Shown piece by piece: positions 35,755 to 36,952 of a DNA stretch of 64,000 bases (positions within the stretch are counted from its first letter, which is position 1; every line of letters starts with the position of its first letter). Under the pieces are notes generated by a model. The model saw only the letters and a program-made list of their open reading frames with translations, made no database searches and had not been told where the DNA came from. Source of the DNA: Nitrososphaeria archaeon (GTDB taxonomy: Archaea; Thermoproteota; Nitrososphaeria; JACIWG01); NCBI GenBank assembly GCA_026413865.1, contig JAOAKB010000002.1, positions 1 through 64,000 on the forward strand. The letters are read 5' to 3'. The translations under genes were made by a program, and so were the position numbers.

Positions 35755-35830
35755 AATCTATTATTTTAATGTTTATATAATTTTGAAAAATCTTTATAAG
35801 CAAGAAACTTTAAGACCTCCAACGAACCTT

Positions 35831-35929
35831 ATGGAAGAAGAGTTCGAAGAAGAATTTGAGGAGGAATTTGAGGAAGACTGGGAAGAAGAAGGATGGGAAG
35901 AAGAGTGGGAGGAAGAAGAGGAGTTTTAG
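35831..35929 (+). CDS. Hyperacidic 32-aa microprotein MEEEFEEEFEEEFEEDWEEEGWEEEWEEEEEF
   Basis: ATG...TAG ORF below the ORF-track length cut-off; TATA-like TTTATAAG at 35793-35800 preceded by the BRE-like GAAAAATC; T-rich tract after the stop; mixed GAA/GAG codons. Confidence 0.6.
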   Translation: MEEEFEEEFEEEFEEDWEEEGWEEEWEEEEEF

Positions 35930-35959
35930 ACTAGACTTTCCTCCTTTCTTTTTTTAATT

Positions 35960-36952
35960 TCAGACGGTTATTGATGGTGTCGTCAGGTCTGTTATATCCG
36001 CTAAAGCTTTTCTAGTAAAGTTTATTGCTGAAATTATAGATGAGATTTTAGAAATTTCCTTTATAGACCTATTCAATGTTAGAGTTCTTATTAAGTTAAT
36101 CTTTTCCTCTATAGAGTCAGATATAGTTAGTATGCTCATTTTTAAAGTAATATTTTTAGACATGTACGCTTTATAAGCTATATCAAACATTTTCTCAAAA
36201 GACAATTTGATTTCATGCAAAACATTTGATAACCCATTATCCAATGTGATGCCTACACTATTTATAACATTCGATGCAATCATGCTAGAATAGTCGCCTA
36301 TTGATTCGATGAGGCTTGCATAAAGTCTATGGTCTAAACATTCTATTGCACTAAGGTTAAACTTTCTCATAATATCTGGGCTTTGAATTGCACTTCTAAT
36401 AAGTCTAACAAAAAGAAAATACAGTCTATCAACTTCATCATCAACCTTAATAACATCTTCAGCAAGTATATTATCATGATTTAGTAGAGAGGAAAATGAG
36501 TCAAGAAACATTGTTTTAACAAGTAAACTCATCCTATTTAAAATCTTATTAGGATTCAATAAGCTTATGTCTGTAACAAACTCTACCAACATTGAATCTT
36601 TATCTTCTTCAACAATTTCTAAGCCAGCAAGTTTAGATAAGAATGTCTTAACATCCTTTCTATCACCATTTTCTATGAAAGATAAATTTACAACTTTTAT
36701 TAGATTGTAGCCTAAAAGATATGCACCAGTAATATCGTCCAAGACAGCCTTTAAACTTCTTTTCCTACAATCTACTACCGACAAATTTTCTGTAAACTTC
36801 TTTTTTGTAGAAAATAATATTAGATTACCGAATTGGTCGACCTCTAAACCCAATACGTCCCCTTTGCAGACACCATACTTTTTTACCCAATCTTTAGGTA
36901 AAGAAATTAATAGTGTTCCTTTTCCAACTTCTTGAACCTTTCTATACTCCAT
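35960..36952 (-). CDS. AbrB/SpoVT-like N-terminus plus PhoU-domain regulator
   Basis: MEYRKVQEVGKGTLLISLPKDWVKKYGVCKGDVLGLEVDQFGNLIL then PhoU-like helical repeats. Confidence 0.88.
   Translation of the reverse strand: MEYRKVQEVGKGTLLISLPKDWVKKYGVCKGDVLGLEVDQFGNLILFSTKKKFTENLSVVDCRKRSLKAVLDDITGAYLLGYNLIKVVNLSFIENGDRKDVKTFLSKLAGLEIVEEDKDSMLVEFVTDISLLNPNKILNRMSLLVKTMFLDSFSSLLNHDNILAEDVIKVDDEVDRLYFLFVRLIRSAIQSPDIMRKFNLSAIECLDHRLYASLIESIGDYSSMIASNVINSVGITLDNGLSNVLHEIKLSFEKMFDIAYKAYMSKNITLKMSILTISDSIEEKINLIRTLTLNRSIKEISKISSIISAINFTRKALADITDLTTPSITV

Follow-up and report, generated by a model that had tools for sequence, protein, structure and literature searches.

Bacterial SSB and the phage proteins gp2.5 and gp32 have acidic C-terminal tails, often with a terminal aromatic residue, and these tails belong to OB-fold proteins. 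In APLF, histone chaperoning requires the aromatic anchors of a disordered acidic domain (PMC9328677). DSS1/SEM1 (PF05160) is a small, disordered, acidic protein bearing Trp and Phe that binds an OB-fold of BRCA2 (PMC8881015). Gon7, the fifth KEOPS subunit, is a small KEOPS-associated protein in eukaryotes, and its archaeal counterpart has been described as the Pcc1 paralog Pcc2 (PMC9889334). The locus studied here lies in a window of 64,000 nucleotides (the whole stretch of DNA that was analysed) from a Nitrososphaeria archaeon, and it encodes a protein that we name AAM (acidic-aromatic microprotein). We call the gene in the window copy A; copy B (MPYLEEEFEEEFEEDFEEDWEEDWDEEWEEEEEEF) is its paralog in the same genome. 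AAM and the APLF acidic domain are alike as acidic segments with aromatic anchors, which in AAM would also serve a basic DNA-binding protein. The APLF domain is the tail of a larger eukaryotic protein, whereas AAM is a free-standing archaeal protein of greater acidity and regularity, whose histone binding is putative. AAM is mostly free-standing, unlike the tails of SSB, gp2.5 and gp32. It shares with DSS1/SEM1 a small, free-standing acidic chain with spaced Trp/Phe, but differs in gene context and aromatic spacing. AAM lies near Sua5 and Cgi121-like genes, but it is far shorter than Gon7 or Pcc2 and resembles neither; at about 32 aa, it is too short for a Pcc1 fold.

The initial annotation described copy A as coding for an unannotated microprotein that is under selection and has a promoter of its own. 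Re-reading the sequence confirmed the 32-aa translation with 22 Glu, 1 Asp and no basic residue (net charge near -23), the Phe/Trp positions (5, 9, 13, 17, 22, 26 and 32) and the promoter element, and a recount of GAA/GAG gave the same 14/8. The T-rich tract reported after the stop is also present, is near-identical in G003, a genome of the same genus, and is a possible terminator of copy A. An in-frame TTG at 35783 would extend the protein to 48 aa. This codon is upstream of the TATA-like box, so a better start is the ATG at 35831, which lies 38 bases downstream of the first base of TTTATAA. The product of the convergent neighbour matched PhoU at 1.8e-13 and MazE at 3.8e-4, the latter below the Pfam cut-off, and we claim no role for it in AAM function. 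In family f45 (L343, L344), the microprotein gene likewise lies beside a relative of this PhoU/AbrB-like gene, in a different orientation.

Table 1. Coordinates of features at the copy A locus and of histone-fold genes near copy B.
Feature	Location	Strand	Basis
Microprotein gene copy A, MEEEFEEEFEEEFEEDWEEEGWEEEWEEEEEF	35831..35929	+	Sequence, ortholog codon comparison, wider-family membership
BRE/TATA-like promoter element GAAAAATCTTTATAAG (putative)	35785..35800	+	Read from sequence, conserved in G003
Pyrimidine-rich tract CTTTCCTCCTTTCTTTTTTTAATT 3' of stop, possible T-rich terminator	35936..35959	+	Sequence
Convergent neighbour, PhoU domain and weak MazE/AbrB-like N-terminus	35960..36952	-	Pfam
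Histone-fold gene near copy B	G000:C48:97795-97977		
Histone-fold gene near copy B	G003:C3:41518-41700		
Histone-fold gene near copy B	G001:C24:9924-10106		
Histone-fold gene near copy B	G004:C3:487872-488054		

Conservation in close relatives had been set beforehand as a test of this gene, and it was found. The copy A ortholog in G003 encodes an identical protein, with six synonymous codon differences, all at third positions, and no nonsynonymous difference. Around the promoter element, G003 matches a 24-base stretch exactly, and TTTATAA is conserved in G001, which has a 31-aa relative at the position of copy A beside the PhoU-domain gene and carries a third copy. Copy B was kept in 5/5 family genomes examined, located between the triosephosphate isomerase (TpiA) gene and a Sua5-type gene in G000, G001, G002, G003 and, in another genus, G004. 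Synonymous and nonsynonymous drift were not equal here either: between same-genus pairs of copy B (four genomes), 3-8 codons differ synonymously and 0-2 change the amino acid, the latter Glu/Asp only and all at third positions. A TATA-like box lies about 33-46 bases 5' of the start in copy B genes and several relatives. In five family genomes, matches to the back-translated pattern EE-aromatic-EEE-aromatic-EE were limited to AAM genes, and the reversed control gave none. Elsewhere in the phylum, the gap-free pair L318/L319 has 10 synonymous and no amino-acid changes, and changes in other related pairs that align gap-free are likewise mainly synonymous; pairs of unequal length compared without gaps are uninformative on this point. 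The codon-change pattern, the family-only pattern matches and the shared TATA box support the description in the initial annotation. By these codon comparisons, copy A is a real protein-coding gene under purifying selection, and AAM is presumably expressed.

DNA patterns found AAM relatives across Nitrososphaeria, ammonia-oxidising archaea among them, as well as in many Thermoproteota families outside that class; the free-standing relatives are about 22-60 aa long. Among the public-genome matches listed, free-standing archaeal relatives occurred in Nitrosothermus (class Nitrososphaeria according to NCBI), a Geothermarchaeota genome, Caldarchaeum, a Thermoprotei archaeon and Thermococcus, of which the one Thermococcus record is the basis for a spread beyond Thermoproteota. 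The acidic-aromatic pattern matched 58/201 class genomes and 132/400 phylum genomes with a nearly empty reversed control; these are not carrier counts, because a match is not in every case a free-standing AAM and the strict pattern misses members caught by relaxed criteria. Examples among the pattern matches are MPILYREEEEWEEEEELWEEFEEEWEEEEEW and MVLYEEEWEEEWEEEEWEEEEWEEEEWEEEEW, and copy A is closest in sequence to the f13 protein. Copies A and B matched no Pfam family, and ten AAM members no NCBIfam family, at E up to 10, in searches whose HMMER filters may suppress low-complexity matches. A tblastn search of genome contigs for relatives returned nothing, probably because of low-complexity filtering; the DNA patterns succeeded instead. 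A profile search of the class did not recover AAM beyond its own genus, and a PDB profile search was empty. The family therefore matched no family model searched, and our literature searches found no paper describing it. AAM was probably overlooked because it is short and of low complexity. Orthology is argued for the syntenic subset, and the case for homology across the phylum comes from synteny and composition rather than from alignment scores; for such low-complexity peptides, sequence homology over the entire set cannot be proven. Beyond the initial annotation, our analysis adds the paralogs, the phylum-wide family, a conserved locus and the C-terminal aromatic residue.

The spacing of the aromatic residues is not that of a random acidic chain. 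Residue shuffling of copy A gave equally many four-residue aromatic gaps in about 0.2% of cases. In 66 AAM representatives, two aromatic residues stood side by side in 4 places, where shuffles predict 62, and the C-terminal residue was aromatic in 43 against 11.5 expected, a feature for which the search pattern does not select. Gaps of four were strongly enriched when aromatics and aliphatics were pooled (200 against 51), although part of this is built in, since the pattern demands one such gap. The proposal that the aromatics of copy A occupy one face of an alpha-helix was not borne out (resultant 0.14 at 100 degrees per residue, shuffle p 0.85), and the value for copy B was 0.36 (p 0.28). 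The family mean of helix-face clustering was mildly above shuffles (z 3.2), with a peak at 85-90 degrees, which the i+4 search pattern favours. AlphaFold predicted a confident single helix (mean pLDDT 94, pTM 0.54); the net charge makes a stable free helix doubtful. The pattern may amount to anchors at even intervals, with charged residues as spacers between them.

As the best-supported reading, we tentatively propose that AAM is a flexible polyanion that acts as a nucleic-acid mimic or chaperone for basic nucleic-acid-binding proteins, with a rough probability of 0.38. We infer its disorder, its mode of binding and its client. The evenly spaced Phe/Trp and the C-terminal aromatic would anchor the disordered chain on positively charged nucleic-acid-binding surfaces, and AAM would keep basic proteins soluble, store them or pass them to DNA or RNA. 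Basic chromatin proteins are candidate first clients. The general idea of an acidic mimic or chaperone was already in the initial annotation; the composition fits it and APLF is a precedent, and it is supported to that extent, with the mechanism put forward conditionally. AAM has the strongly acidic segment and the spaced aromatics of acidic histone chaperones, and the same organism has a histone-fold protein. A histone-fold gene (PF00808 over cut-off) was present in 20/21 genomes searched, the window genome included, and in four genomes it lies about 3-4 kb from copy B (Table 1). Nearly all of these relatives have histone-fold genes, and the nearness may just reflect a conserved gene block, so these genes lend the chaperone reading little weight. 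AAM shares no operon with a chromatin gene, which counts against chromatin chaperoning, and the helix predicted by AlphaFold, rather than disorder, counts against a flexible polyanion. If the proposal is true, archaea would have in AAM an acidic chaperone of a type that has been described from eukaryotes. It is rather unlikely, though conceivable, that AAM is an ancient, phylum-wide general chaperone of chromatin or RNA-binding proteins and a free-standing archaeal counterpart of eukaryotic acidic-aromatic disordered regulators.

AAM might instead act like DSS1 and regulate OB-fold proteins or different single-strand-binding proteins, its acidic-aromatic chain lying along an OB groove and tuning the loading and release of SSB/RPA or a partner. 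AAM copies terminate inside the acidic run, usually with F, W or Y, and a C-terminal acidic run ending in Phe resembles the bacterial SSB tail, which together with the general build of DSS1 speaks for such a role. We consider it unlikely, because PF05160 found no AAM: there was nothing above the curated cut-off in 151 phylum genomes and no match in the window genome, and none of three weak matches in the 151 was a known AAM gene. AAM also lacks the C-terminal basic/hydrophobic helix region that follows the acidic part of DSS1, its aromatic spacing is different, and it was rejected as a member of DSS1/SEM1. DNA mimicry by DSS1 itself is disputed (PMC8881015).

The copy B locus (FBPase-TpiA-microprotein-Sua5-THUMP-Cgi121) is recognisable across families, which indicates that much of the AAM set is inherited. 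The order is TpiA-AAM-Sua5-THUMP-Cgi121 in f14, TpiA-AAM-Sua5-Cgi121 in f1, TpiA-FBPase-AAM-THUMP in f4 and TpiA-FBPase-AAM in f13; f3 and f9 have AAM and Sua5 in head-to-head orientation, with THUMP next in line. Outside the class, f73 has THUMP-AAM-RPB9/RpoM-like zinc ribbon-ABCE1-like-FBPase, where the ABCE1-like gene is what we take it to be from our own reading. Pfam was used to check representatives of Sua5, TpiA, THUMP, FBPase and the zinc ribbon, and sequence clustering to assign the other members; Cgi121 in the copy B locus scored 4.6e-4, below the Pfam cut-off. In f2 (L279-L283, L080), the microprotein gene and a KaiC-type ATPase gene are arranged head-to-head, and a Sua5 or helix-turn-helix gene comes next.

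This neighbourhood invites the reading that AAM binds Sua5, the THUMP protein or KEOPS, modulating how tRNA is handled when t6A or ac4C is made. AAM is head-to-head with a Sua5 or THUMP gene in eight families (f1, f3, f4, f9, f12, f14, f38 and f73), and a Cgi121-like gene is nearby. TpiA and FBPase are in the same block, however, so that shared descent of the locus explains the position of AAM beside Sua5 and THUMP. AAM is found elsewhere in f6, f13, f25, f26, f30, f43 and f45, as is copy A, and the fifth KEOPS subunit of archaea has already been described (PMC9889334). A tRNA-modification accessory is therefore quite improbable. Slightly further down the scale, AAM could be a soluble protein that buffers or chelates cations or polyamines. 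About 70% of its residues are Glu/Asp, and in f26 (L332, L333, L336) the microprotein gene is just 5' of, and in the same direction as, the gene for S-adenosylmethionine decarboxylase, a polyamine enzyme, which hints at a polyamine link there. The conserved aromatic spacing and the C-terminal aromatic are left unexplained by chelation, however, and the polyamine neighbour occurs in one family only, so we give this reading little credence.

In bacteria, ribosomes can become unstable while they translate acidic runs, and AAM might thus be a regulatory nascent peptide, an acidic leader that, while itself being translated, acts on a downstream gene. This is very improbable, since the copy A locus, with a convergent next gene and a T-rich tract after the stop, offers no downstream gene to regulate, and AAM copies occur in varied contexts. 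The probability that copy A is no protein gene, but a purine-rich repeat that arose by chance or slippage or else a non-coding element, is practically negligible: the low-complexity, purine-rich sequence would suit it, but the codon-position pattern of change, the conserved length class and the conserved locus contradict it.

Acidic-aromatic segments of this kind also occurred in other proteins. Bacterial and viral pattern matches (Lachnospiraceae YAVYRFFTPDYLEDFEDDFDDDF proteins, Planctomycetes and viral contigs) were for the most part acidic segments within, or at the end of, larger proteins, and we did not count them as AAM. L053, L055, L057 and many Lachnospiraceae loci encode a recurrent bacterial small protein ending in TPDYLEDFEDDFDDDFDDDFFED, a similar acidic-Phe repeat that is probably unrelated to AAM. 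Small cysteine-rich, zinc-ribbon-like proteins with acidic-aromatic tails are encoded at L350 (G488) and in the Nitrososphaeraceae-like f10 (L292, L298, L307). The 90-aa f10 proteins were set aside as a different protein, and their genes adjoin a gene resembling the replication factor C small subunit. In G223, two paralogs of about 103-106 aa with no Pfam match (L334, L335) have the same kind of tail (ELWEEFEEEWEQEDEWEEEWEEEEEW), which indicates that the acidic-aromatic segment also exists fused to another domain.
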